Assembly: GCA_012839895.1 (NCBI GenBank)
Contig: DUML01000075.1
Coordinates: 1-64,000, forward strand
Reading direction: 5' to 3'
DNA length: 64,000 nt
DNA from: Peptococcaceae bacterium
GTDB lineage: Bacteria; Bacillota; Desulfitobacteriia; Desulfitobacteriales; Syntrophobotulaceae
Shown: positions 2,060 to 64,000 of the stretch, piece after piece
How the letters are laid out: every line of letters begins with the position of its first letter
Position numbering within the stretch: the stretch's first letter is position 1
The notes under the pieces: generated by a model
Told to the model about the DNA's origin: nothing
Database searches by the model: none
The model's input: the letters and a program-made list of their open reading frames with translations, nothing else
Position numbers and translations under genes: made by a program

Positions 2060-4005
2060 TTTACTATTGCTCCCGTGGAAAATTCTTTTTGGACTGTCAG
2101 TACTTCCAAGGTACCCTCTTCTGACGCGGCTAAAATCATCCCCTGTGAGACTATACCCCGTAATTTGGCAGGCTTAAGATTAGCAACCAGGATGACTTTT
2201 TTGCCCACTAATTCCTCCGGTGCATAATACTGGGCAATACCTGAGACTATGGTCCGGACTTCTTCCCCAAGCTGAACCTCCAGTTTAAGCAGTTTATCAG
2301 CTTTTTCCACTTTTTCCGCTTTGAGAACTTTAACTACCCTCAGGTCTATTTTGGCAAAATCTTCAATACTGATTTCTTCTTTAATAGGAGCAATTTGTGG
2401 CGTAACGGCCTTTTCAGGGGCTTGAGGACCCTCTCCTTGGCTCGTACCGGTACTCCCTTGTTCTTCCTCCGTAAAAGCGGAAATATCCACTCTGGGGAAG
2501 ATGGGCTGCCCTTTTTCAATCACAGTCCCAGGGGGGATAATATTCCACTTGGCCGCTTGCTCCCAGTCCCCATAATAATCGCCGCCGCCCAGCAACGGCT
2601 TAATCTTCTCTGGGACGCCCGGCATAAAGGGGGCGCATAAAATACCTAAGATTCTGATACTGTCAACAAAAGTATAGAGCACGGTGTTGAGTCTTTCCCG
2701 CTGCGAGGGGTCTTTAGCCAAATTCCAAGGAGCAGTTTCGTCCACATATTTATTGCAGCGGCTCACAAACTGCCAGATAGCTTCTAAAGCTGCGGCCGGG
2801 TCACAAGCCAGCATTTTTTCCTCAGCCGTAGCCATAACTTGGCTGCTGAGTTCCTTTAATTCCTTTTCCAAATCCGTATCCGGACCGGGACTGGGGACTT
2901 TGCTGTCATTGTATTTGACCACCATGGCCAAGGTGCGGGAAATATAATTGCCTAAATCGTTAGCCAAATCACTGTTTAATCTTTCTACCAGGTCATCTTC
3001 GGAATAAGTTCCATCCATGCCTGCCTGCATTTCCCGCAAAAGGAAGTAACGGATGGGATCGGAGCCATAGCGGCGGATAAGTTCAAATGAATCCTGGACA
3101 TTGCCCCGGGACTTGGATATTTTACCCCCTTCCTTGCTTAAGAACCAGCCGTGGCCAAATACTTTTTCCGGAAGGGGTATGTCCAAAGCCATTAAAACTA
3201 TCGGCCAAATCACGGTATGGAAACGTACAATGTCTTTGCCAATTAAATGGACATTCGCCGGCCAATATTTTTTATAATTCTCTCCGTCCGGATAACCCAG
3301 AGCTGAAATGTAGTTAATAAGAGCATCCAGCCAGACATAAACTACATGTTTGGGGTCAAAAGGCACTTTGATTCCCCAGTTAAATGTTGTCCGGGAAACA
3401 CAAAGATCTTCCAACCCGCCTTCAATGAATTTGATCATTTCGTTGCGGCGGGAAGCAGGCTGGATAAACTCGGGGTGGTCCTGAATATATTTAAGAAGCC
3501 TGTCCTGGTATTTGGACATTCTGAAAAAATAGCTTTCTTCTTTTAAGAGCTCAACCTCTCTGCCGCAGTCCGGGTTGGGGCATTTCCCATCCACTAACTT
3601 GTTTTCAGTCCAGAAGGTTTCACAGGGAGTGCAGTACCAACCTTCATATTCCGATTTATAGATATCCCCTTGCTCATAAAGCTTGGTAAAAATTTGCTGG
3701 ACGACTTTGGCATGGCGTTCTTCCGTTGTCCGGATAAAATCGTCATTTGATATTTGCAAGAGCTTCCACAGTTCTTTAAACCTTTCCACTATCCCGTCCA
3801 CATAAGTATGAGGGTCAAGACCTGCGCTCTCTGCCGTTCTTACAATTTTTTGGGCGTTTTCGTCTGTCCCGGTTAGGAAAAAGACATCATCACCCTTCAT
3901 TCTTCTCAATCTGGCCATAGCATCGGCAGCAATAGTTGTATAGGCTGTTCCAATATGGGGGCTGGAATTAGGGTAATAGATTGGGGTAGTAATATAATAT
4001 TTCAC
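2056..4005 (-). CDS. metG: Methionyl-tRNA synthetase with C-terminal tRNA-binding domain
   Basis: Class I aminoacyl-tRNA synthetase that charges tRNA-Met with methionine. The HIGH-type motif is PHIGTAYT near residue 16 and the KMSKS-type motif is KISKSRG near 298. A zinc knuckle (CTPC...CPNPDC) lies near residues 125-150. Residues about 545-649 form a Trbp111-like OB fold (IDLRVVKVLKAEKV...) that promotes dimerisation and tRNA binding. At 649 residues this is the long bacterial form. A Pro/Gly/Gln-rich linker (about 510-535) joins the core to the OB fold. Confidence 0.97.
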   Translation of the reverse strand: MKYYITTPIYYPNSSPHIGTAYTTIAADAMARLRRMKGDDVFFLTGTDENAQKIVRTAESAGLDPHTYVDGIVERFKELWKLLQISNDDFIRTTEERHAKVVQQIFTKLYEQGDIYKSEYEGWYCTPCETFWTENKLVDGKCPNPDCGREVELLKEESYFFRMSKYQDRLLKYIQDHPEFIQPASRRNEMIKFIEGGLEDLCVSRTTFNWGIKVPFDPKHVVYVWLDALINYISALGYPDGENYKKYWPANVHLIGKDIVRFHTVIWPIVLMALDIPLPEKVFGHGWFLSKEGGKISKSRGNVQDSFELIRRYGSDPIRYFLLREMQAGMDGTYSEDDLVERLNSDLANDLGNYISRTLAMVVKYNDSKVPSPGPDTDLEKELKELSSQVMATAEEKMLACDPAAALEAIWQFVSRCNKYVDETAPWNLAKDPSQRERLNTVLYTFVDSIRILGILCAPFMPGVPEKIKPLLGGGDYYGDWEQAAKWNIIPPGTVIEKGQPIFPRVDISAFTEEEQGSTGTSQGEGPQAPEKAVTPQIAPIKEEISIEDFAKIDLRVVKVLKAEKVEKADKLLKLEVQLGEEVRTIVSGIAQYYAPEELVGKKVILVANLKPAKLRGIVSQGMILAASEEGTLEVLTVQKEFSTGAIVK

Positions 4006-54640: not shown

Positions 54641-54718
54641 GACGGGCTTTGAAATCTTAAACCTAATATTGAACATATAGCCGACCCCTTTAAGCGTTCG
54701 GAATTCCTTTCTCCGCCC

Positions 54719-54734
54719 GTTCGAATCCCACTCT
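54719..54734 (+). repeat. Short inverted copy of a tRNA-Ser 3' segment
   Basis: GTTCGAATCCCACTCT on the plus strand equals the T-loop and acceptor part of the tRNA-Ser genes in this window, in opposite orientation to the fragment at 54807. The preceding TCTCCGCC also looks like an acceptor end. It may be debris of earlier integrations. Confidence 0.4.
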
Positions 54735-54806
54735 TCCTTAGTGCATAAAGTATGTATATAAAATTAAAATAATAAACTTCATCTTTACAATGAAGTTTTA
54801 TGTTCA

Positions 54807-54864
54807 TGGCGGAGAGAGTGGGATTCGAACCCACGGTACCCTTGCGAGTACTCCGCATTTCGAG
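54807..54864 (-). other. tRNA-Ser(CGA) 3' fragment: attachment site of the integrated element
   Basis: On the minus strand, 58 bases equal the 3' part of a tRNA-Ser: anticodon loop CTCGAAA, 3' anticodon stem, long variable arm GTACTCGCAAGGGTACC, T-arm GTGGGTTCGAATCCCAC, acceptor TCTCTCC, then GCCA. Upstream of the anticodon loop the similarity stops (after 54864), and there is no D-arm or 5' acceptor strand. This is what a tyrosine recombinase leaves at the displaced end. The rebuilt complete tRNA should lie at the far end, beyond the window. Confidence 0.8.
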
Positions 54865-55018
54865 TTATTTGAAGGCAAGTTCTTATGAGTTTACGAGAGT
54901 AACTTTAGGAGAAGATAAAATCCCGCAGACCCGCATAAATAAAGGCTTTTCAGGCACAAACGCTGATATTTCCGCGCATGAACACACCGCCCTGATTTAG
55001 CGGTTTTCAGGGCAAAGT

Positions 55019-55039
55019 GTAGAAAAACCGTAGAAAAAC
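55019..55039 (+). repeat. Direct repeat near the element end (candidate integrase arm site)
   Basis: GTAGAAAAAC occurs at 55019-55028 and 55030-55039, 11 bases apart, about 155 bases inside the tRNA boundary. Tandem short repeats at this distance are typical of tyrosine-integrase arm sites, but the integrase is not seen and the link is inference. No gene lies in 54865-55197. Confidence 0.4.
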
Positions 55040-55197
55040 AACCGGCGAAATAACCTTAAGATACTTTAGTTTCCCGGCAATTTGAAAAATCAAAACCAAG
55101 CGTATCCTACCATTGACATTGATTTTTAACAGAACATCCTGCAGCAGACAGAGCATAATTCTCTGTCCTAAGGATCAATGTGATGGGAGGAACGATG

Positions 55198-55758
55198 ATG
55201 GCAACCGACTACTCTTACCTTCTGGCTGAATATCCGGAGAAGATAAGTCAAGACCAGCTTTACAGAATTTGCCGCATAAGCAAACGAAAAGCCACATGGC
55301 TTTTGGAGAACGGATATATCCCCTGCGAGGATACCGGCAAAAAGACCCGCAGGTTTAAAATCCAAATAACCGACGTTATTGCATACCTTACTCGCTTGGA
55401 AGAATCTCCTGAAACTCTGCTGACACCACCGGGGATATTTTCAAGCGGAATAAAATATAAACCGAAGCGCCAAACGGCGAAGGCAATCAACTCCGAGAAG
55501 TTTATGGCAATGCTTAAGAACAAGTGGCACACCTTTCCGGATGCCCTCACGGTAAATGATGTCACAAAGCTAACGGGATACTGCCAAACCACAGTATCTG
55601 AATGGATCAAGGCAGAAAAGATAACGGGGGTATGGTATTATACCAAGTATTTAGTGCCAAAGGACAGCTTGATAAACTATATGGCAACAGAAGCTTGCCG
55701 CATCCATCAGAAGTCCAAAAAGCATATAGAGCTGCTGGAGCAGTATCGAAATCCCTAA
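55198..55758 (+). CDS. Helix-turn-helix protein, excisionase-like
   Basis: 186 residues from ATG 55198 (GGGAGG upstream; ATG 55195 and 55180 are in frame). Two DNA-binding modules of MerR/excisionase type: YRICRISKRKATWLLENGYIPCEDTG...RFKIQITDVIAYL near residues 20-65 and LTVNDVTKLTGYCQTTVSEWIKAEKITG near 115-145. First gene inside the element next to the attachment site, where excisionases or their regulators often lie. Followed by a strong terminator. Confidence 0.65.
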   Translation: MATDYSYLLAEYPEKISQDQLYRICRISKRKATWLLENGYIPCEDTGKKTRRFKIQITDVIAYLTRLEESPETLLTPPGIFSSGIKYKPKRQTAKAINSEKFMAMLKNKWHTFPDALTVNDVTKLTGYCQTTVSEWIKAEKITGVWYYTKYLVPKDSLINYMATEACRIHQKSKKHIELLEQYRNP

Positions 55759-55784
55759 ATGCTCGGCGCATCCATTTACATGAA

Positions 55785-55819
55785 AACAGGGTGACTACTT
55801 TGCATAGTGTCACCCTGTT
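55785..55819. terminator. Bidirectional terminator between the HTH gene and the toxin gene
   Basis: AACAGGGTGAC (55785-55795) pairs perfectly with GTCACCCTGTT (55809-55819), 13-base loop, A and T rich at the outer ends. Serves two converging genes. Confidence 0.88.
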
Positions 55820-55829
55820 CTTGTATCGA

Positions 55830-56141
55830 TTATAAAAATCTGATCCAGTCGCGTCTGCCGTACAGAATTCTTTCAACGTCAACCACCTTGTTCTTCTCGT
55901 CTATGGAAAAAAACACAACGTAATTTTTTACAATTAGTTTCCTGTATCCCATTTGAGATAGACGATCGTCTGAAAGCGGACAGCGCTGCGGCATATCGGA
56001 CAGACTTAGCATTGCCTCTTCAAAAAGCTCCATCATACGAGTTGCCGATATGGGAGCTGACAGCTGAGAAGCAATATACCGAACAATGTCCCTAAGATCG
56101 TTTTCGGCTGGTTCAGATACATCTACCCTATATTTCGCCAT
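55830..56141 (-). CDS. ParE/RelE-superfamily toxin
   Basis: 103 residues: YRVDVSEPAENDLRDIVRYIA near the start, MPQRCPLSDD near 50, then YRKLIVKNYVVFFSIDEKNKVVDVERILYGRRD near 66-98. This is the YafQ/RelE/ParE core with its basic residues. It would inhibit translation by mRNA cleavage or act on gyrase; sequence alone does not settle which. Start overlaps the antitoxin gene by 14 bases, the usual arrangement. Confidence 0.9.
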   Translation of the reverse strand: MAKYRVDVSEPAENDLRDIVRYIASQLSAPISATRMMELFEEAMLSLSDMPQRCPLSDDRLSQMGYRKLIVKNYVVFFSIDEKNKVVDVERILYGRRDWIRFL

Positions 56142-56400
56142 CGGCGATGCCTCGCTTAATATCCTTCATGACATCTTGAAGCGGACGCTTTTTACCCGCT
56201 TTAACGGCCGATCGTCCTTCGTCAAGCAGGTGATACAGTTCAAGCTTGCCGCTGAGTGCCTCATAGGTTTCAATGCTCATAACCGCCAAATCTCCCTGCC
56301 CGTTTTTTGTGATAAAAACAGGTTCACGGCTTTCATGACAGAAGGTGGATATCTCATTATAGTTATTCCGCAGGTCAGTGCTGGACTTTATATTTGGCAT
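56128..56400 (-). CDS. Antitoxin of Phd/YefM-RelB type
   Basis: 90 residues from ATG 56400 (GGAGG upstream; an in-frame ATG at 56421 is poorer). N-terminal DNA-binding part IKSSTDLRNNYNEISTFCHE followed by EPVFITKNGQGDLAVMSIETYEAL, the Phd/YefM fold, and a basic C-terminal toxin-binding helix. It neutralises the toxin and should autorepress the pair. Encoded first, toxin second. Confidence 0.9.
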   Translation of the reverse strand: MPNIKSSTDLRNNYNEISTFCHESREPVFITKNGQGDLAVMSIETYEALSGKLELYHLLDEGRSAVKAGKKRPLQDVMKDIKRGIADGEI

Positions 56401-56768
56401 AGCGTTTACCTCCTTACACAATTCTAAAGATATTATACACGAATTTCTTTAGAATATCAATTGAATTTCGCTGACTGCAACTGGCATCGAAAATAAGACA
56501 CCGGATGCCGGTTAAAATCTTAATGAGATCGTTTCCTATGAAGGGACGAATATGACTCATATGTAACTCTCGTTTAATCATAAACAAAACACCTCTTTAT
56601 CTCTTTCCATAACAATACAACATCAAAGATATATCTTATAAAAATTGAACACATTGAACTTGTTGTTTCAAACAAAATCCCATTAAATTCAGTATCAATG
56701 TATAGAAGCAGAATAATCAGAGAATAATAAATGCCTAAGCACTGTCATAAAATAAGTTTTAAATTTGA
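56401..56768. other. A+T-rich divergent intergenic region
   Basis: Between the toxin-antitoxin operon and the XRE-ImmA-PIN operon. I see no gene. It includes an A+T-rich stretch near 56600-56760, and the antitoxin promoter should lie close to 56420-56470. Confidence 0.4.
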
Positions 56769-56797
56769 TTGACAATATGACAAATGCGGCATATACT
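56769..56797 (+). promoter_or_regulatory. Promoter of the XRE-ImmA-PIN operon
   Basis: TTGACA (56769-56774) and TATACT (56792-56797) with exactly 17 bases between, then 25 bases to the start codon with AGGGAGG. A near-consensus sigma-A promoter, consistent with a repressor gene kept on in the integrated state. Confidence 0.75.
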
Positions 56798-56822
56798 ATA
56801 AATATAGAAGGGAGGCATTATC

Positions 56823-57176
56823 ATGAATAACTCTCTGGAGATCATCGGAGCAAGGATAAAATCTCTGCGCGAAAATAGCGGCCTTACACAAAGCAATGTG
56901 GCTAATTATCTTCATGTCGATCAAAGCCTTGTGTCTATGGTCGAGAAAGGCAAACGGGCACTGACGGCGGATATGCTGGATAAGCTTGCAGCCTTGTTTG
57001 GTACGCGGGTATCTGCACTCATGGAGCCGGAAATGAAGGTTAAACCGCTGTCCTTTGCGCTTCGTGCAAGCGAAATCGGAGAAGATGACTTGGACGCAAT
57101 TAGCGCCATAAACAGGATTGCTTTAAATAGCCACTTTATGACTCAATTGCTTGAGGGTGAGCATGCCAATGGATAG
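56823..57176 (+). CDS. XRE-family HTH repressor
   Basis: 117 residues. HTH at about 8-65 (IGARIKSLRENSGLTQSNVANYLHV, then QSLVSMVEKGKRALTADMLDKLAALFG). The C-terminal part (about 75-117) is helical and may be the cleavage or dimer region. Adjacent ImmA makes this an ImmR-like repressor by analogy with ICEBs1, where the protease removes the repressor upon DNA damage. Overlaps immA by 14 bases. Confidence 0.88.
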   Translation: MNNSLEIIGARIKSLRENSGLTQSNVANYLHVDQSLVSMVEKGKRALTADMLDKLAALFGTRVSALMEPEMKVKPLSFALRASEIGEDDLDAISAINRIALNSHFMTQLLEGEHANG

Positions 57177-57921
57177 AATAGAGTTATGGAAAAAAGCTCT
57201 CAGTTTACGGAAAGAGCTTGGAGAAGATGCGACTTCTCCGATCGATATATTGGCATTGGTTCATACAATCGATAAATTATCCATCGTATACTATCCGATG
57301 GGGAATCACATTAGCGGTATTTGTATTAAGGGAACCGGCAGCAATGTCATCGCCATTAATTCAGCCATGACCCTTGGAAGGCAGCGCTTTTCCATGGCTC
57401 ATGAACTATATCACCTGTATTTTGATGATGACGAACTCACTGCGGTGTGTGCAAAAACAATCGGCGAGGGAAATGAAAAGGAAAAGCAAGCAGATCAGTT
57501 TGCATCGTATTTGCTTATGCCCCCGGATGCCCTTTCGGATAAAATTGACCAGCTGAAAAAGTCGAGCTCCGCCAAGCTTTCCATTCATGATGTTGTGCGT
57601 TTGGAGCAATACTTTCGTGTTAGCCGCCAAGCTATCCTTTACCGGCTGCTCAGCGAAAATGAATTAACCCGTGAAGAAGCTGATTCAATGCGCCAAAACG
57701 TAATTTTATCTGCTCTTAATCTTGGCTACGATGATACACTCTATAGACCGACACCCGAAGATAAGCGATACAGGACATACGGCTACTATATTCAGCAGGC
57801 GGAAAAAGCTTTGGAACAAGGGCTAATATCCAGCGGCAAATATGATGAATTGCTGCTATCTGCTTTCCGTTCCGACCTCGTCTATGGGGAGGAAATCGAA
57901 GGGGGCGAATTGCTTGACTGA
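57163..57921 (+). CDS. ImmA/IrrE-family metallopeptidase
   Basis: 252 residues from ATG 57163 (GAGGGTGAG upstream). Zinc motif MAHELYHLYF (HExxH) near residue 75, third ligand region EKQADQFASYLLMP near 105, then a winged-helix-like C-terminus (LSIHDVVRLEQYFRVSRQAILYRL). The family cleaves XRE repressors in ICEs or DdrO-type repressors after stress. Substrate is probably the gene product just upstream. Ends overlapping the PIN gene by eight bases. Confidence 0.92.
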   Translation: MPMDRIELWKKALSLRKELGEDATSPIDILALVHTIDKLSIVYYPMGNHISGICIKGTGSNVIAINSAMTLGRQRFSMAHELYHLYFDDDELTAVCAKTIGEGNEKEKQADQFASYLLMPPDALSDKIDQLKKSSSAKLSIHDVVRLEQYFRVSRQAILYRLLSENELTREEADSMRQNVILSALNLGYDDTLYRPTPEDKRYRTYGYYIQQAEKALEQGLISSGKYDELLLSAFRSDLVYGEEIEGGELLD

Positions 57922-58450
57922 TTCGCTCTTTTTTGATAGCGACTGTATCTCGGCTTTTTTGTGGGTTGGGAATGAAAATTTATTGGTTAAGTTATATCCC
58001 GGTAGGATCGTTATTCCTAAAACTGTTTATGACGAACTGTCCTATCCCGGGATTGCGCACCTAAAGGCAAGAGTAGATGCACTCCTTTCGGTGGGACAAG
58101 CACAGGTAATGTCCATTGATGTGGCTACGGAAGCCTATGATATATATTATCAGCTTACCGAAAAACCAAAAGCCGGGCATATGGTTATCGGCAAAGGAGA
58201 AGCCGCATCCATCGCATTAGCAAAACAGTATGACGGCATTGTAGCAAGTAATAATCTGAAGGATATTTCTTTATATATCGCTCAAATGGATTTTAAGCAT
58301 CTATCAACTGGCGATATATTACTTGCGGCACTGGAAAGAGGATACATCACCGAAGCACAGGGAAATACTATTTGGACTAAAATGCTATCTAAACGAAGAA
58401 AACTGGGGGCGGCAAACTTTACTGCTTACATACAGGCAAAGCAAAAATAA
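57914..58450 (+). CDS. PIN-domain protein (DUF3368-like)
   Basis: 178 residues from a TTG at 57914 (GGGGGCG upstream; an in-frame ATG at 57842 lies inside immA). PIN features: LFFDSDCISAFLW at the N-terminus, VIPKTVYDEL near 40, GKGEAASIALAKQYDGIVASNNLKDI near 95-120. Acidic residues are mostly kept; the usual Asp pair in the last motif is Asn-Asn. PIN proteins are ribonucleases, often toxins. Overlap with immA places it in one operon with the XRE repressor. Confidence 0.85.
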   Translation: MTDSLFFDSDCISAFLWVGNENLLVKLYPGRIVIPKTVYDELSYPGIAHLKARVDALLSVGQAQVMSIDVATEAYDIYYQLTEKPKAGHMVIGKGEAASIALAKQYDGIVASNNLKDISLYIAQMDFKHLSTGDILLAALERGYITEAQGNTIWTKMLSKRRKLGAANFTAYIQAKQK

Positions 58451-58534
58451 AAACGCCTATCGCTCATTTCATAATTTATAACGCAAAATTAGAACTAAAG
58501 ACTCCAATATTGCAAATTGGAGCCTTATTTATTG

Positions 58535-58576
58535 GCCGGGGAATCGAAGTGCAGAAATGCACTTCGATTCCCCGGC
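58535..58576 (+). terminator. 19-bp perfect hairpin with GAAA tetraloop
   Basis: GCCGGGGAATCGAAGTGCA (58535-58553) pairs perfectly with its complement (58558-58576) around GAAA, followed by TTTTCTTTTTT. It lies about 85 bases after the PIN stop and 28 bases before the next start, so it can end the operon or attenuate the following genes. Its stem is much longer than other terminators in the window. Confidence 0.85.
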
Positions 58577-58603
58577 TTTTCTTTTTTGGAAGGGAGGAAA
58601 AAT

Positions 58604-58834
58604 ATGTTGGTACGCTATAAGAAAAACAAGAAACCTGCCTGTTATGATTCTGATGTCCTTGTAACAACAGGTCCGATACCGGCAGCTGAACGGCCTAAGG
58701 GACCATTTAAAAGCTGCGGAAACTGCCCCTACCCCTCTCATGGTTTTATCTGCTACAGTTCCGAGGGAGATTGCCTTAGAACCGATATGCAGAAAATAAA
58801 CAAAAAACCCAATGCAAAACAAAAGCTCATATGA
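58604..58834 (+). CDS. Small cysteine-containing protein (76 aa)
   Basis: ATG 58604 follows AGGGAGG. The product starts MLVRYKKNKKPACYDS and has a four-Cys cluster (CGNC...C...C near residues 45-64), likely a zinc site, and a basic tail. The frame is open further upstream to 58517, but that part lies in the hairpin. Its stop codon overlaps the next gene's ribosome site region. Function unknown; typical short ICE cargo. Confidence 0.65.
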   Translation: MLVRYKKNKKPACYDSDVLVTTGPIPAAERPKGPFKSCGNCPYPSHGFICYSSEGDCLRTDMQKINKKPNAKQKLI

Positions 58835-58847
58835 AGGAGGAACAAAT

Positions 58848-59573
58848 ATGAGATATGACAGTGAATTTCTGAGATTGCTCAAGGAGAAGTATCCGCCCGG
58901 TACACGAATCCGTCTCACAAAAATGAACGATCCCTATGCCCCCGTACCACCCGGTACAGAAGGTACGGTGGATTTTATTGACGATGCGTGCGGAATTCAC
59001 ATGCAATGGGACAACGGGCGCTCCCTTGCCCTCATTCCTGGGGAGGACTCGTTCTCAAAAATATCTCCTCCGCTCCAGACTCTCAAGCTATATATGCCGC
59101 TTACTGTAAAGGAATACGAGCGCAACGAATGGGGAGATTGGGAGGATTATCCCTCGGAGCTGGATCAAGATACTATCCTCTCCTATCACGATTCTATCCT
59201 TGCAGCCATTGTGAAAGAGCGAAGGCCGGAAGAAACGGAACGAGGACTCATGAAATACTATCCTAAAAATGACAGCGTCAATCAGAAGGTTCATTCCTTC
59301 TTTTTCACAGTGGAACAGATTGGCGCCAAGCTGATGGGTGTGGCCGAATGCCGCATACAAGGGAGCTTGAGTGAGGCAGAGCTTGAGCAGCTTAAGGATT
59401 ATGTTTCCGGTCAGGCATCGGACGGCTTTGGTGAAGGCTTTGAGCAGCATCCCTTAAAAACAGGCAATGGCGAAATCTATGTCAGCCTATGGAGCAGTGA
59501 TAAAGACTGGAGCATCATGACGCCGGATGAGTTGGCGCAAAGCCAGCAGATGGGAGGAATGCAGCTTGGATAA
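58848..59573 (+). CDS. DUF4314 domain protein
   Basis: 241 residues from ATG 58848 (GAAGGAGG upstream). N-terminal DUF4314 (about 15-70): GTRIRLTKMNDPYAPVPPG near 18, then VDFIDDACGIHMQWDNG and LIPGEDSF, an SH3-like beta module. The C-terminal two-thirds (about 80-235) form an acidic domain of unknown function. DUF4314 is a marker of clostridial conjugative elements; no activity is established. Confidence 0.8.
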   Translation: MRYDSEFLRLLKEKYPPGTRIRLTKMNDPYAPVPPGTEGTVDFIDDACGIHMQWDNGRSLALIPGEDSFSKISPPLQTLKLYMPLTVKEYERNEWGDWEDYPSELDQDTILSYHDSILAAIVKERRPEETERGLMKYYPKNDSVNQKVHSFFFTVEQIGAKLMGVAECRIQGSLSEAELEQLKDYVSGQASDGFGEGFEQHPLKTGNGEIYVSLWSSDKDWSIMTPDELAQSQQMGGMQLG

Positions 59574-59682
59574 TATCTTGACCGTTCTGACCGGAGATGA
59601 ATAGCAGAATTTCTTTTGGTATTTGGTATAGCTTTCCTATGAAAAGTGTGGCATTGTGTTGTAATTGAAGGAGGTGGACAGA

Positions 59683-59970
59683 ATGGAGTTATGGAAAGAG
59701 TCCTTACAAACTGCATTGGACGAACGTCTTGACGCAGCGTTTGCGGAATTGGCAGAATCCAACCCTGCTGTCAGGGAGGCTGTCAAACAGCAGCGGGATG
59801 CATCGGTGCTGGTAAAGGATCATCCGAAATACGATAACGAATTGAAACAGATAGTGGACTCATATTTTGAAGCTATGCAGCTTTTGCTCGGTGAATACAG
59901 CCGACATCTGTACATCCAAGGCGCTAAAGACTGTGTGGCGGTTTTGAGAGAGCTTGGCGTAATCAAGTAG
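59683..59970 (+). CDS. Hypothetical helical protein (95 aa)
   Basis: ATG 59683 with AAGGAGGTGG before it. All-helical by composition: ELWKESLQTALDERLD near the start and LKQIVDSYFEAMQLLLGEY near 55. No transmembrane segment or cysteine cluster (one Cys only). I do not recognise a family; proteins of this size and style recur in clostridial ICEs. Ends directly at a terminator hairpin. Confidence 0.7.
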   Translation: MELWKESLQTALDERLDAAFAELAESNPAVREAVKQQRDASVLVKDHPKYDNELKQIVDSYFEAMQLLLGEYSRHLYIQGAKDCVAVLRELGVIK

Positions 59971-59997
59971 CGCAGGCAATGATGCCTGTGCTTTTTT
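59970..59997 (+). terminator. Terminator after the 95-aa gene
   Basis: GCGCAGGCA (59970-59978) pairs with TGCCTGTGC (59983-59991) with one G-U pair, loop ATGA, then six T residues. Confidence 0.8.
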
Positions 59998-60009
59998 AGA
60001 TTCAAAATC

Positions 60010-60050
60010 AAAACAGGGCCGTTTCCCCAAACAGGAGGCGGCCCTGTTTT
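60010..60050. terminator. Second hairpin upstream of the HTH-methyltransferase operon
   Basis: AAAACAGGGCCG (60010-60021) pairs perfectly with CGGCCCTGTTTT (60039-60050), 17-base loop, then TT. With the hairpin at 59970 it makes a tandem terminator block. Confidence 0.82.
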
Positions 60051-60103
60051 TTATCATTTGTCCTGCCTTTCTTTCCGGGGAAGCGTCCGGAAAGGAGGCG
60101 AAC

Positions 60104-60436
60104 ATGCTTAAAAAACAGCTTGCGGAATATCTGCACCGCTATCATCACGGTGCGGAAAATGCCGTCACCAGCAAAGAACTGGAACACACTTTTTGTGTTT
60201 CCGGTAAGGAACTGCGCGACATTGTCAACAGCCTGCGTCGCGAAGGCATCCCTATCGCCAGCGATCAAAGCGGATATTTTTACGCAAGAACCGAAGCGGA
60301 AATCCGGCTGACCATCCGTCATATGAGAAGCCGTATTAGCGGGATCAGCGCCGCCATCGGAGGGCTCAGGCATTCCCTCACGGCATTTGACGGTACGCAG
60401 ATATGCCTGCCGCTGGAGGGAGGTGATGACTCCTGA
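60104..60436 (+). CDS. Small HTH protein upstream of the methyltransferase
   Basis: 110 residues. An HTH_11-like winged helix at about 5-70 (AVTSKELEHTFCVSGKELRDIVNSLRREGIPIASD, then GYFYARTEAEI), C-terminal helix after that. ATG 60104 is preceded by GGAGGCG. Its TGA stop is followed within eight bases by the methyltransferase start and the GGAGG needed for it lies in the end of this gene, so translation is coupled. Likely an autoregulator. Confidence 0.75.
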   Translation: MLKKQLAEYLHRYHHGAENAVTSKELEHTFCVSGKELRDIVNSLRREGIPIASDQSGYFYARTEAEIRLTIRHMRSRISGISAAIGGLRHSLTAFDGTQICLPLEGGDDS

Positions 60437-60444
60437 ACAGCTTT

Positions 60445-61275
60445 ATGTCATGGATCGGCGGCAAAAAATCCCTGCGTGAGCTGATCGTCACACTGTTTCC
60501 CCTCTACTACGAAAGATACATTGAAGTATTCGGCGGAGGCGGCTGGATACTGTTTCACAAGCCGCCCGGTAACGACTTTGAGGTATATAACGATTTCAAC
60601 GGACTGCTGGTTAACTTGTACCGCTGTGTACGGGAAAAGCCGGATGAACTGATAGAAGCACTGCGTTATGTCCTCAACGCCCGCGCAGACTTTGACCTTG
60701 TTAAAAATACCCTCGCCCGTGACAGTCCTGCTTCCGATGTACAGAAGGCAGCCTGGTTTTACCAGCTTATCCGCTACAGCTACGCATCGGGACTTACCAG
60801 CTATGGCAGTCAGCCCCATGATATGTGGTCCAATTTTCCACTGATTGAACAGGCTCACAGACGGCTTGCCAAAGTGGTGATCGAAAACAAGGATTTCGAG
60901 AAGTTGATTGGGCAATACGACCGCCCCGTCAGCTTTTTCTACTGTGACCCGCCGTACTTTGAAACCGAGGGCTACTACAAAAACGTGGGTGAGGACGGCT
61001 TTACAGAAAAAGATCACATCCGCCTGCGGGATGCTCTGCTGCGAATTGAGGGCAAATTCCTGCTGTCCTACAATGACTGCGATTTTATCCGCAATTTGTA
61101 TGATGCGCCCGGTATCCAAATTGATTCCTATACCCGCATCAATAACATCAAGCAGCGGTATGACAATGGGGCGCAGTTCCCCGAAATCCTCATTGCCAAT
61201 TACGATATGGGGGAACGGACGAGGGAGGCCCCGGCGCAACTCAATTTATTTGACAACGGCGGGATTGAGCTCTGA
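60445..61275 (+). CDS. D12-class N6-adenine DNA methyltransferase
   Basis: 276 residues. SAM site: WIGGKKSLRELI at the N-terminus and YIEVFGGGGWILF near residue 26; catalytic motif FYCDPPYFETEG near 170. This is the Dam/D12 alpha class that methylates adenine. Family members often begin MNSF before the WIGGK motif; here the codons CTG-AAC-AGC-TTT directly precede ATG 60445, so a CTG start at 60433 is possible. No endonuclease gene adjoins it; an anti-restriction or regulatory role is inferred. Confidence 0.92.
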   Translation: MSWIGGKKSLRELIVTLFPLYYERYIEVFGGGGWILFHKPPGNDFEVYNDFNGLLVNLYRCVREKPDELIEALRYVLNARADFDLVKNTLARDSPASDVQKAAWFYQLIRYSYASGLTSYGSQPHDMWSNFPLIEQAHRRLAKVVIENKDFEKLIGQYDRPVSFFYCDPPYFETEGYYKNVGEDGFTEKDHIRLRDALLRIEGKFLLSYNDCDFIRNLYDAPGIQIDSYTRINNIKQRYDNGAQFPEILIANYDMGERTREAPAQLNLFDNGGIEL

Positions 61276-61336
61276 CCGAAAAACCAAAAGGAACACCGTC
61301 CCTATCGGGGCAAATATTTAAAGGAGGACAGACCCC

Positions 61337-61909
61337 ATGAAAAACAATCAGAAGAAAAATGAGCAGACCCTGCAAATCCCCATAGATGTTCAGCAGCGTT
61401 GCAGCTTTGCCGATGCGGAAACCCTTGCGGTGACAGCCGCCGAAGGCGTATGCGTCATCCACAAGGGTGAAATGACGGCGCTGGAGCTTATTCGCGTTAT
61501 TGCCGCACTCAGCGAGCTGGCAAGCGATATGACGGTTCACCTTGCCGGAGCTTGCGGTCTCTGCAACAACTGCGAGGATGAAAATCCGGAAGCAAGTGAA
61601 AAAGGCGGCTGCAATCACAACCCCGCTGAATGGGTAGCAGACTGCTCCCTTTGCCGTGATCTGCTGGACGAAAACCAGGACATCCGCATTCCAGACTATC
61701 TGCTGGAGGAAGCGGGTATCCCCAAGGGTACCCGGTTAGAAGGCTATACCGATGAGGACAGCGGCGAATTTACAGTCGTAAAGGCAGATATCCAGCAAGA
61801 TATTCGCGATGTACCGGCCTGCATTCTTTCGGTGCTGGCGCAAAACGGTATCTGCCTTGCAGCATTGGATGAATTGATCATGCAGGAAAGCATCATCTAT
61901 GGCAAATAA
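61337..61909 (+). CDS. Hypothetical ICE protein with Cys-rich centre and AbrB-like tail (190 aa)
   Basis: AAGGAGG precedes the ATG. The middle (about 75-115) has eight or more cysteines and histidines (CGLCNNC, GGCNHN, CSLCRD), probably zinc-binding. It is followed by IRIPDYLLEEAGIPKGTRLEGYTDE near 120-145, which resembles a swapped-hairpin AbrB/SpoVT half. I do not know a characterised homologue. Position between methyltransferase and YodL protein is typical cargo. Confidence 0.7.
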   Translation: MKNNQKKNEQTLQIPIDVQQRCSFADAETLAVTAAEGVCVIHKGEMTALELIRVIAALSELASDMTVHLAGACGLCNNCEDENPEASEKGGCNHNPAEWVADCSLCRDLLDENQDIRIPDYLLEEAGIPKGTRLEGYTDEDSGEFTVVKADIQQDIRDVPACILSVLAQNGICLAALDELIMQESIIYGK

Positions 61910-61950
61910 CCTGCCCTCATTCTTTAAGACATTATCTGGGAGGTGGGAAG

Positions 61951-62502
61951 ATGTTAGGGATTACCCTGAAAAACGGCCTCATTTCCTACTATGGAAACCC
62001 GGCCGGTTATACTGATAAAGAAAAAGCCATTGTGGACAGCATTTTTCAAAATGATGAGCTGACCATCTGGCTCCAAAGCCGCTCCTTAACGCCGAAGTGG
62101 ACAGATGGCGTGATGGAGCGGCTTCTTGCTGGCGAACGTGCGGATGGCATGGAAGGCGTACTGCTGAAAAATGTTCGCATCTGGCAGTTAAAGCCGGACG
62201 TGGACGTGCACATGAAATTTATACCCTATGAAGAAATGGTGCGGCGATTTGGAGAGCCATCTCTCGAAAATTACAACATCGTCTATGACGGTCAGCTCGA
62301 CACCAACGACCTCGAAGCCATCTACACAAGGTGCAATGCAAATCACCCGGCAGGCTTTTCGGGACACTCTCTTTCCATGTCTGATGTGGTGGAGCTGTAT
62401 GACGCCCAAGGCAGCGAATATCACTACTGCGACCGTTTTGGATTCCAGAAAATCAGCTTCGGGGGCTCAGAGCAGACCCAAGCTATGGAAATGAGTATGT
62501 AG
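61951..62502 (+). CDS. YodL-domain protein
   Basis: 183 residues. The C-terminal half (about 105-170) matches the YodL pattern: YNIVYDGQLDTNDLEAIY near 108, HPAGFSGHSLSMSDVVELYD near 130 and YHYCDRFGFQKI near 155. The N-terminal half (about 1-95) is an unassigned helical domain. YodL modules are frequent in conjugative-element proteins of Firmicutes, often attached to larger polyproteins; function not established. GGGAGGTGG precedes the start. Confidence 0.8.
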   Translation: MLGITLKNGLISYYGNPAGYTDKEKAIVDSIFQNDELTIWLQSRSLTPKWTDGVMERLLAGERADGMEGVLLKNVRIWQLKPDVDVHMKFIPYEEMVRRFGEPSLENYNIVYDGQLDTNDLEAIYTRCNANHPAGFSGHSLSMSDVVELYDAQGSEYHYCDRFGFQKISFGGSEQTQAMEMSM

Positions 62503-62524
62503 GCAGCCTGGGGCTGCCTTTTCT
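62501..62524 (+). terminator. Terminator after the YodL gene
   Basis: AGGCAGCC (62501-62508) pairs with GGCTGCCT (62512-62519), then TTTTC. The short stem overlaps the stop codon by two bases. Confidence 0.8.
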
Positions 62525-62558
62525 CGACCAAAGAAACAATAGAACGGAGGAAAACTAC

Positions 62559-62822
62559 ATGGTTCAGGTTATCAAAAAAATGAAAAGTACAGCTTCACAC
62601 AAGATTACAGCGGCAAAGGATGCCGCAGCCAATCTCGCTTTCCGTGGCAGGAACCTTCTCTCAGGTAATGCCGGAGAAGGTTATATTGACACAGCCATCA
62701 AAATCTTGCTGGCGGTTGTCATTGGCGCCCTGCTCCTTGCGGGGCTCTATGCCCTGTTCGGGGAAACGGTGCTCCCGACCCTGACCCAGCGCATTAAGGA
62801 AATGTTCAACTACGCCGGTTAG
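62559..62822 (+). CDS. Small membrane protein of conjugative elements (DUF6133-like)
   Basis: 87 residues: a basic amphipathic N-terminus (about 1-35, KKMKSTASHKITAAKDAAA) and one transmembrane helix at about 48-68 (ILLAVVIGALLLAGLYALF), then a short tail. The arrangement resembles pilin-like or holin-like small subunits placed near conjugation genes. AACGGAGG precedes the ATG. The family name is from memory and not certain. Confidence 0.7.
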   Translation: MVQVIKKMKSTASHKITAAKDAAANLAFRGRNLLSGNAGEGYIDTAIKILLAVVIGALLLAGLYALFGETVLPTLTQRIKEMFNYAG

Positions 62823-62855
62823 AAATACCGGAAATTTTGAGAAGGAGGAATAAAC

Positions 62856-63215
62856 ATGCCTAAGAATACAACATCGCCCGTTCCAAAGTACGATGTGAAA
62901 ATTCATTCCATCCGTCCGGCTGGAAGCTGCAAGGCCACCGCCTCGGTCAATATTTACGGTGTTTTCGCCGTTCGGGGCATCAAGATTATGGAGGGCTCCA
63001 AGGGGCTGTTCATTTCCATGCCCAGCTACAAGGCCGGAAACGGCGAGTACAAGGATATCTGCTTTCCTTGTACCAAGGAGTCCAAAGCGGAATTTGACAA
63101 GGCGGTTATCGGGGCTTACCAGCAGACGCTCACTCAAGGACAGGCCGCCGCACAGAAACAGGAATCTTCCGAACTCCAGCAGGAGCAAAGTCAGCCTGTC
63201 ATGGGCGGGATGTAG
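62856..63215 (+). CDS. SpoVG-domain protein of the element
   Basis: 119 residues; SpoVG fold at about 10-88: VKIHSIRPAGSCKATASVNI near 12, VFAVRGIKIMEGSKGLFISMP near 38 and YKDICFPCTKES near 66. Chromosomal SpoVG is an RNA/DNA-binding regulator; this ICE copy has a Gln-rich tail (about 95-119). AAGGAGG precedes the start. It may regulate element or host genes; not tested by sequence. Confidence 0.88.
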   Translation: MPKNTTSPVPKYDVKIHSIRPAGSCKATASVNIYGVFAVRGIKIMEGSKGLFISMPSYKAGNGEYKDICFPCTKESKAEFDKAVIGAYQQTLTQGQAAAQKQESSELQQEQSQPVMGGM

Positions 63216-63225
63216 GAGGTAGCCA

Positions 63226-64000
63226 ATGAACGAGAAAATGAAAAAGCCTCTCGGCATTCTTCTTGTGGTTTGCTTGGTGGTTTCCCTGCTTGCGGGCAGC
63301 GCCTATGCGGTAAACCGATATTTTGAGGATGCCAAAGGCCATTGGGCGGAGGAAGCTATTCAAATTCTTACAGATAAAGGCGTCATCAGCGGTTATCCCG
63401 ATGGCTTGGTACACCCTGATGCCATCATCACCAGAGGCGAGTTTGCAGCCTTGATCGCAAGAACCATGGAATTGCCGGAACCGAATGAAAGCCAAATTAC
63501 CATTCATTTTACCGATATTGCCGGCCACTGGTCAGAGAAGCATGTGGAAGCACTCATTATTGCGGGAATCATCCAAAAGGATGATTTCGGCACAAAGTTT
63601 CTGCCAGACGAGCCCATCACCCGCATAGAGATGATCCGTATGCTGGTGAGAGCCATCGGCAAAGGCGACCATGACGCATCCTGCTCCTGCGCAACCGGCT
63701 TTTCAGATGACAGCGAACTTGGTGACGCAGACAAAGCCTGCATCTGCGCCGGTAAAAAATATGGTATTGTAGACGGCTATCCGGACGGAACGGTTAAACC
63801 GAACGGCAATGCCACCCGCGGAGAAGCCTTTGAAATGCTGGTGGACGCTGATAAGGCAAAGGAGCAGATCAATAAAGAGGAAACAGCGAAGCCGCCAGCA
63901 AACACCAAACCGAAGGATAAGTACTCAAACTCCGACAGTAGCGGCGGATCTTCCTATGTTCCTGCCCCGCAGTTCAGCTTTACGCTGCCCAAAACCGCTT
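63226..64000 (+). CDS. Secreted SLH-domain protein (cut by window edge)
   Basis: 258 residues visible, open at the right edge. Signal peptide at about 1-28 (ILLVVCLVVSLLAGSAYA). Three S-layer homology repeats follow: FEDAKGHWAEEAI with GYPDGLVHPDAIITRGEFAAL, FTDIAGHWSEKHV with FLPDEPITRIEMIRML, and FSDDSELGDADKAC with GYPDGTVKPNGNATRGEAFEML. Residues after about 210 are Pro/Lys/Ser rich, then a new domain begins. SLH repeats anchor proteins to wall polysaccharide, so this is a surface protein carried by the element. TAGGAGG precedes the ATG. Confidence 0.9.
   Translation, partial: MNEKMKKPLGILLVVCLVVSLLAGSAYAVNRYFEDAKGHWAEEAIQILTDKGVISGYPDGLVHPDAIITRGEFAALIARTMELPEPNESQITIHFTDIAGHWSEKHVEALIIAGIIQKDDFGTKFLPDEPITRIEMIRMLVRAIGKGDHDASCSCATGFSDDSELGDADKACICAGKKYGIVDGYPDGTVKPNGNATRGEAFEMLVDADKAKEQINKEETAKPPANTKPKDKYSNSDSSGGSSYVPAPQFSFTLPKTA

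Follow-up and report, generated by a model that had tools for sequence, protein, structure and literature searches.

A putative integrative and conjugative element that splits tRNA-Ser(CGA) and carries a replacement copy, the probable landing site of the next element

Several ways in which mobile elements use tRNA genes have been described. According to the sections of the Islander paper (PMC4383910) and of a review on archaeal recombinases (PMC8371274) considered here, integration of canonical tDNA islands restores the tRNA, and the attachment site holds a tDNA fragment. A different mode, tRNA-dependent lysogeny, was reported in 2024 for actinobacteriophages. In the portions of that study cited here, the carriers are temperate phages, and the need for the phage tRNA was shown experimentally (PMC10865867). 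The same portions mention the use of a plasmid tRNA as attB by a second plasmid as speculation only, and the authors state that the spread of tRNA-dependent lysogeny beyond Actinobacteria needs study (PMC10865867). In the group of Rhizobium phage vTRX32-1, which has a tRNA-Leu, a host tRNA is interrupted by the prophage at a motif of 12 bp, and the prophage brings a replacement. This replacement does not contain the motif, which, according to the authors in the excerpt used, prevents super-integration (PMC8631192). An excerpt of a Sinorhizobium paper mentions a case similar to that of the Rhizobium phage group.

The segment at positions 54807-54865 of the stretch analysed here is very probably the right attachment junction of an integrative and conjugative element (ICE) which splits tRNA-Ser(CGA) and supplies its own replacement copy, the next landing site. 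The nearest known system is tRNA-dependent lysogeny (PMC10865867). Both systems have a tyrosine integrase, a core at the anticodon (about 8-11 bp in the phages) and a host tRNA that is not rebuilt. In contrast to the phages, the carriers described here have conjugation genes, their tRNA lies beside the integrase gene and the attachment site, and they form nests in natural genomes. The element would therefore work like tRNA-dependent lysogeny but would not be "lysogeny", because the scanned element proteins include conjugation proteins and no virion part. With the canonical tDNA islands, as outlined in the sections cited (PMC4383910, PMC8371274), the element shares the tyrosine integrase, the anticodon-loop subsite and a tRNA fragment at the island end, but its target tRNA is not restored. 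In contrast to the excerpt on the vTRX32-1 group (PMC8631192), most of the element tRNAs described here retain the core and have demonstrably been targets again; in one of them (G036), the core is partly lost. As for ICEs with a MobL relaxase, a coupling protein and a VirB4/TraG-type ATPase, the common features are the relaxase, the type IV secretion system (T4SS) coupling protein, the TraG-type ATPase, an NlpC/P60-M23 hydrolase and the integrase. The present putative ICE differs from them in its replacement tRNA and Tad/Flp-type pilus genes. The full-text literature searched, which leaves out most subscription papers, contained no recognised description of conjugative elements with this arrangement or of natural nests. 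The use of a replacement tRNA by conjugative elements of Clostridia and relatives, with a carried tRNA that keeps the core and serves as next landing site, is apparently new.

The window, i.e., the whole stretch of 64,000 nucleotides analysed, corresponds to positions 1-64000 of contig C77 in a 2.84-Mb draft genome (G000) of 132 contigs with 2.9% contamination. The initial annotation described 54807-54864 as the 3' half of tRNA-Ser(CGA), starting in the anticodon loop. The sequence confirms this, with a real extent to 54865, i.e., 59 nt and not 58. On the minus strand, the segment reads ACTCGAAATGCGGAGTACTCGCAAGGGTACCGTGGGTTCGAATCCCACTCTCTCCGCCA and comprises the anticodon loop, the 3' anticodon stem, the long variable arm, the T arm, the 3' acceptor strand and CCA. 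It corresponds to positions 33-91 of the joined 91-nt gene described below. ARAGORN called no tRNA at 54807-54865, and the DNA to the right of it (minus strand ...CTTGCCTTCAAATA) holds no tRNA 5' half, in line with the earlier claim that no 5' half lies beside the fragment. The 9-bp att core ACTCGAAAT (54857-54865, minus strand) is common to both element ends and to the element's own tRNA.

Left of 54807, the DNA is chromosomal, with a terminator-like hairpin, an FmdE-like open reading frame (ORF; the label is a reading from the sequence, without a domain scan) and two transglycosylase-like ORFs. The hairpin, a stem-loop read by eye just past the host tRNA 3' end (54775-54806, minus strand; AAACTTCAT...ATGAAGTTT), is probably the terminator of the host gene, left on the chromosomal side. 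A similar hairpin is found 3' of the intact gene in G024 and 3' of the 3' half in G021. The chromosomal side also contains a T-arm-like piece at 54716-54731 and its surroundings (GTGGGATTCGAACGGG, minus strand), which has a single exact copy in the G000 genome. In G021, G031, G036, G040 and G042, pieces resembling it follow directly after the Ser(CGA) 3' half.

Right of the junction, the right end of the element (54866-55180) is matched by similar right ends in other genomes. Copies with 95-97% identity were found in G001, G002, G016 and G017, and copies with 79-80% identity in G002, G005, G008, G009 and G016. All ten strong right-end matches, its own included, adjoin a tRNA-Ser 3' half. The earlier proposal of an element boundary with the element to the right was borne out, as was the prediction for the far end, which is located on contig C9 of the same genome and has an intact tRNA-Ser(CGA) next to the integrase gene.

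The order of genes at this left end is Ser(TGA), Arg(CCT), tadA, a tRNA-Ser 5' half, 151 bp, a complete tRNA-Ser(CGA) and the integrase. The host 5' half (C9:19935-19975) stops at the core. The complete, element-borne tRNA-Ser(CGA) (C9:20127-20217) lies 151 bp inside the left end, tail-to-tail with the gene of a tyrosine integrase of 415 aa (C9:20381-21628; PF00589, E 1.5e-22). The 9-bp core alone is common to the 5' half on C9 and the 3' half in the window. Joined at this core, the halves give a 91-nt gene with a perfect anticodon stem. ARAGORN recognises the joined sequence as tRNA-Ser(CGA) and finds no tRNA at either of the present-day junctions.

Empty sites were searched in 61 genomes. 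The joined gene is identical at 90 of 91 positions to the intact tRNA-Ser(CGA) of G024, a genome of the same family (E 1.6e-40), and 97% identical to that of G028. Judged by its sequence, the fragment at 54807-54865 is not a chance match, because joining it with the 5' half on C9 yields a gene matching both intact genes. In G024, the order Arg(CCT)-tadA-Ser(CGA)-hairpin-transglycosylase is uninterrupted; in G000, the same order is divided between C9 and C77. An intact, identical empty site in relatives had been named as evidence against the element. Such a site is seen in G024 and G028, yet it supports insertion. The ends of C9 and C77 do not overlap, and the linkage of the two element ends therefore rests on the halves, the subtype of integrase and right end, and synteny.

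The complete tRNA on C9 differs from the split gene in the acceptor, D arm, anticodon stem and variable arm. Rfam models detected 35 tRNA genes in G000, of which 33 were typed by anticodon; Ser(CGA) occurs once, as the gene of the element. A search of G000 with a pattern for the Ser(CGA) 3' half returned nothing beyond this gene and the window fragment. No complete Ser(CGA) gene other than the element's copy was found in the G000 assembly. The host tRNA-Ser(CGA) is left broken in two, with the element bringing a replacement and not a reconstitution.

In the proposed mechanism, the tyrosine integrase would recombine the host tRNA-Ser(CGA) at the 9-bp core, within its anticodon loop. Since the attachment site of the element shares the core alone with the gene, integration would leave two non-functional halves of the host gene. 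The loss would be made up for by the element's own complete tRNA-Ser(CGA), presumably transcribed, charged and needed in the cell. Because this core is also present in the anticodon loop of the replacement, the latter would become the next landing site; the next element would split it and bring a further copy. Excision would be expected to restore the host gene. Directly visible in the genomes are both junctions, the joined gene, the empty site in relatives, a conserved integrase-tRNA module and element tRNAs whose two halves enclose a second element. We consider it likely that the landing site renews itself in this way. Each element would destroy tRNA-Ser(CGA) and supply a copy that is both the working gene of the cell and the next target, so that the site never fills up. 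The chromosomal tRNA gene would be handed to a succession of mobile elements, and the abandoned 5' halves would be a partial record of the invasions.

Within the window, the element DNA covers 54866-64000 and runs on to the contig end at C77:76633; no tRNA was found between the right junction and this end. The first element gene (55180-55758, plus strand) codes for an HTH_17 protein (PF12728), and a D12-class DNA adenine methyltransferase (PF02086) is encoded at 60445-61275 (plus strand). A CpaF-like T2SSE ATPase (C77:69512-71038) is located among Tad/Flp-pilus-type genes. On C9, Pfam matches indicate a MobL relaxase (C9:41026-43143), a T4SS coupling protein (T4SS-DNA_transf, C9:37458-39281) and a TraG P-loop/AAA_10 protein, i.e., a TraG-type ATPase (C9:49938-51479). 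According to Pfam, the element further encodes an NlpC/P60-M23 hydrolase, a type I restriction-modification set and Tad/Flp-type pilus genes. Together, the parts on C9 and C77 amount to ~53 kb, and more element DNA may lie between them, as the contig ends do not overlap. Among 20 element proteins compared with Pfam, conjugation proteins were present and none was named as a virion part. The gene set of an ICE, namely integrase, relaxase, coupling protein and T4SS ATPase, is present, spread over the two contigs. The element thus looks conjugative, and transfer is predicted from these genes. Head-to-tail arrays formed via a rebuilt attachment site were considered and rejected: the junction right end-core-left end was absent from 21 genome assemblies with at most one mismatch, and had no exact match in viral contigs.

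The integrase scan of genome contigs gave 26 loci. A complete tRNA-Ser(CGA) is found in 18 of them, on the opposite strand and 35-176 nt past the integrase gene, and in all 18 its isotype and anticodon are the same as those of the split gene. Three loci (L041, L056 and L061) have the 3' half alone of such a tRNA, abutting the end of another element; one (L048) stops at the contig end, and two (L047 and L049) have an integrase with no tRNA beside it. Two remote relatives of the integrase without an adjacent tRNA (L063, 25% identity; L064, 32%) were left out of further analysis. Beyond the left end, a 5' half-tRNA was recognised by eye in 17 of the 18 loci with a complete tRNA, with degenerate or truncated forms in L046, L051 and L052; the contig of the eighteenth, L040, ends too early to show it. 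The hosts of the integrase loci include Clostridium sporosphaeroides, C. viride, Caproiciproducens, Oscillibacter, Sinanaerobacter and Lacrimispora. Within the taxonomic class of G000, 3 of 82 genomes have an integrase matching at E 1e-90 or better, and more distant integrases are found in the same layout in G021, G030, G031, G036, G040 and G042. The integrases at this one gene are 62-99% identical, related ones 42-48%, and they come with several replacement tRNAs.

Databases of phages and plasmids were also compared. A phage as carrier was considered and rejected: a pattern scan of IMG/VR revealed no relative of the integrase, and the 1798 matching records of a phage collection all have less than 60% identity. 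Three of the best five of these 1798 records have a Ser(CGA) 36-130 nt past the integrase gene; short, unannotated gut "phage" records therefore also carry the module. Among plasmids, 412 records match the integrase, all below 60%. Two further loci concern other elements. In L089 (G003:C13), a 5' half identical to a carried tRNA of this integrase family precedes a left end of another type and an integrase with 35-39% identity; a carried tRNA has therefore served as target for an integrase of another lineage. In L072 (G006), three 5' halves at 921-1079 have a spacing of only about 80 bp, which implies the existence of other elements whose left ends measure about 37-40 bp.

The nesting of elements and the right ends with their 3' halves were searched in 20 genomes, a set that leaves out the genome of L040. 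Both halves lie on one contig in G009, the cultured relative C. viride DSM 6836 (66.2 kb apart), and in G021 (82.1 kb apart); G021 and G031 are single-contig genomes. The pairing of halves was tested on ten pairs for which both halves were available. Nine of them have 12 of 12 standard pairs (G-T allowed) in the acceptor and anticodon stems. The tenth, the outermost pair of G001, has 8 of 12, and these halves are probably not a true pair. Among 100 unmatched combinations, 12 also reached 12 Watson-Crick pairs, because several hosts share stems. The halves of G010, which have the unusual acceptor GCAGCGG/CCGCTGC, also fit when compared by eye.

In Caproiciproducens galactitolivorans (G002), a 63-kb element with its integrase, complete tRNA and left end is inserted between the 5' and 3' halves of the tRNA of another element. 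Each of these flanking halves is 100% identical to the element tRNA of G000, and an older integrase follows the 3' half; the oldest layer is found without its integrase. In C. sporosphaeroides (G001), three 5' halves at a spacing of 191-192 bp precede the complete tRNA, and a right end 65.7 kb on abuts a 3' half and a shortened integrase. Flavonifractor An10 (G010) contains an 18-kb element with a 42-44% identical integrase inside an older element with a 67% identical integrase. The 5' and 3' halves in G031 fit as well; no integrase gene of at least 150 aa lies directly after the inner 3' half, and G031 is therefore not counted as proof of nesting. A c-di-GMP-I riboswitch (Rfam RF01051) is located within the inner element of G031 (L240, 5092-5179). 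The span between the halves in G040 is 377 kb. The split element tRNAs point to nesting, in which a carried tRNA is hit again by the next element.

Alternatively, the stacked 5' halves may be the product of homologous recombination that duplicated a ~192-bp unit in tandem, and not of serial integrations. This alternative is unlikely. The even spacing in G001, where two units are nearly identical, would fit it. Recombination between cores or repeats also seems to remove units, as G002 and G010 each fall one 5' half short of the number expected from simple nesting. Nevertheless, the units of G001 are not all copies, with three different halves and two left-end types, and real integrations are needed to account for the split element tRNAs of G002, G010 and G001, with their right ends and second integrases. 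With serial integration as the preferred reading, the missing 5' halves in G002 and G010 may have been lost by such recombination, and the stacks would therefore undercount past integrations.

The carried tRNAs look functional. The stem-pair test used a selection of 16 complete element tRNAs (12 distinct), one per genome. In the acceptor, anticodon and T stems, 203 of 204 pairs are kept, with many compensated changes; with reshuffled partners, 158 pairs were kept on average and at most 172 in 1000 trials. With the Rfam tRNA model, which has a cut-off of 29 bits, the element tRNAs scanned score 51-58 bits. A strict promoter scan gave no match just upstream of the element tRNA. A TTGACT-N18-TATTAA pair seen there by eye is conserved among close relatives; it fails the strict scan and is not claimed as a promoter. 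The promoter and terminator scan gave a single terminator-like match, no more than shuffled sequences yield. Under wobble rules, Ser(TGA) may read UCG codons. As a Ser(TGA) gene is present in the G000 genome, the replacement Ser(CGA) is perhaps not essential. In L223 (G036), the left end is like that of relatives and the complete tRNA (1271-1360) is a wholly different tRNA-Ser(CGA). Its anticodon arm reads TCTCGAAAA, and part of the core is therefore lost. This tRNA may be a swapped-in copy immune to further integration.

Another explanation is that the element tRNA is kept for a different reason, such as resistance to host anticodon nucleases or codon supply, with an incidental place beside the integrase. 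Phage tRNAs are thought to counter tRNA-cutting defences, as stated in the portions of the lysogeny report cited (PMC10865867), the G036 element tRNA is very divergent, and L047 and L049 have no element tRNA. This explanation is nevertheless improbable, given that isotype and anticodon equal those of the split gene in each of the 18 loci, that the tRNA has a fixed position beside the integrase and attachment site, and that no other complete Ser(CGA) gene was found in G000.

The canonical mode, in which the split tRNA is reconstituted at the integrase end, was assumed in the initial annotation and is very improbable for G000. The ends of the element, one with a 3' half and the other with the integrase and an intact tRNA-Ser(CGA), would agree with this mode, which does seem to occur at the same gene in G026, a genome of the same family. 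There, an intact Ser(CGA) (C1:12329-12420) lies about 81 kb from a 3' copy that differs at one of the 51 nt following the core (manual count). Between the two is a member of the G000 integrase family, whose gene has one internal stop codon. This arrangement looks like canonical rebuilding. In G000, however, the sequence of the intact tRNA is not that of the split gene but belongs to the element, and 151 bp beyond it lies the orphaned 5' half of the host gene. The predicted second copy of the 58-base segment is absent from the genome, where the only further DNA matches lie in other serine tRNA genes and are 30 and 41 nt long. The orphan 5' half and the missing copy refute canonical reconstitution in G000, and replacement is the preferred reading. 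As a side observation, one and the same tRNA-Ser(CGA) gene of G026 seems to serve as target both for elements that rebuild it and for elements that replace it (L268, i.e., G026:C1:9500-19000, and L269).

An assembly or binning artefact, with contigs from different organisms or chimeric junctions, is hardly credible: the genome is a draft with 2.9% contamination in which the two contigs do not overlap, but the same arrangement lies within one contig in G009 and G021, related cases are found in G002, G010 and G031, and the G000 halves join to a gene nearly identical to that of G024.

Replacement has several consequences. Natural genomes show the tandem use of a carried tRNA, which was previously speculation. 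It explains how one att site accepts many elements while a working gene copy is kept. Island finders relying on a rebuilt tRNA would misplace or overlook such elements, and a search based on pairing a tRNA with its own fragments could overlook them. In tRNA annotation, a gene belonging to a mobile element would be assigned to the host.

The elements also carry a structured RNA. The pemK RNA motif (Rfam RF02913) is found a few kb from the integrase gene in L065 (about 3700-3794) and at matching places in L066, L086, L240 and L245. It is also present in the element of G000, near C9:22.6 kb.
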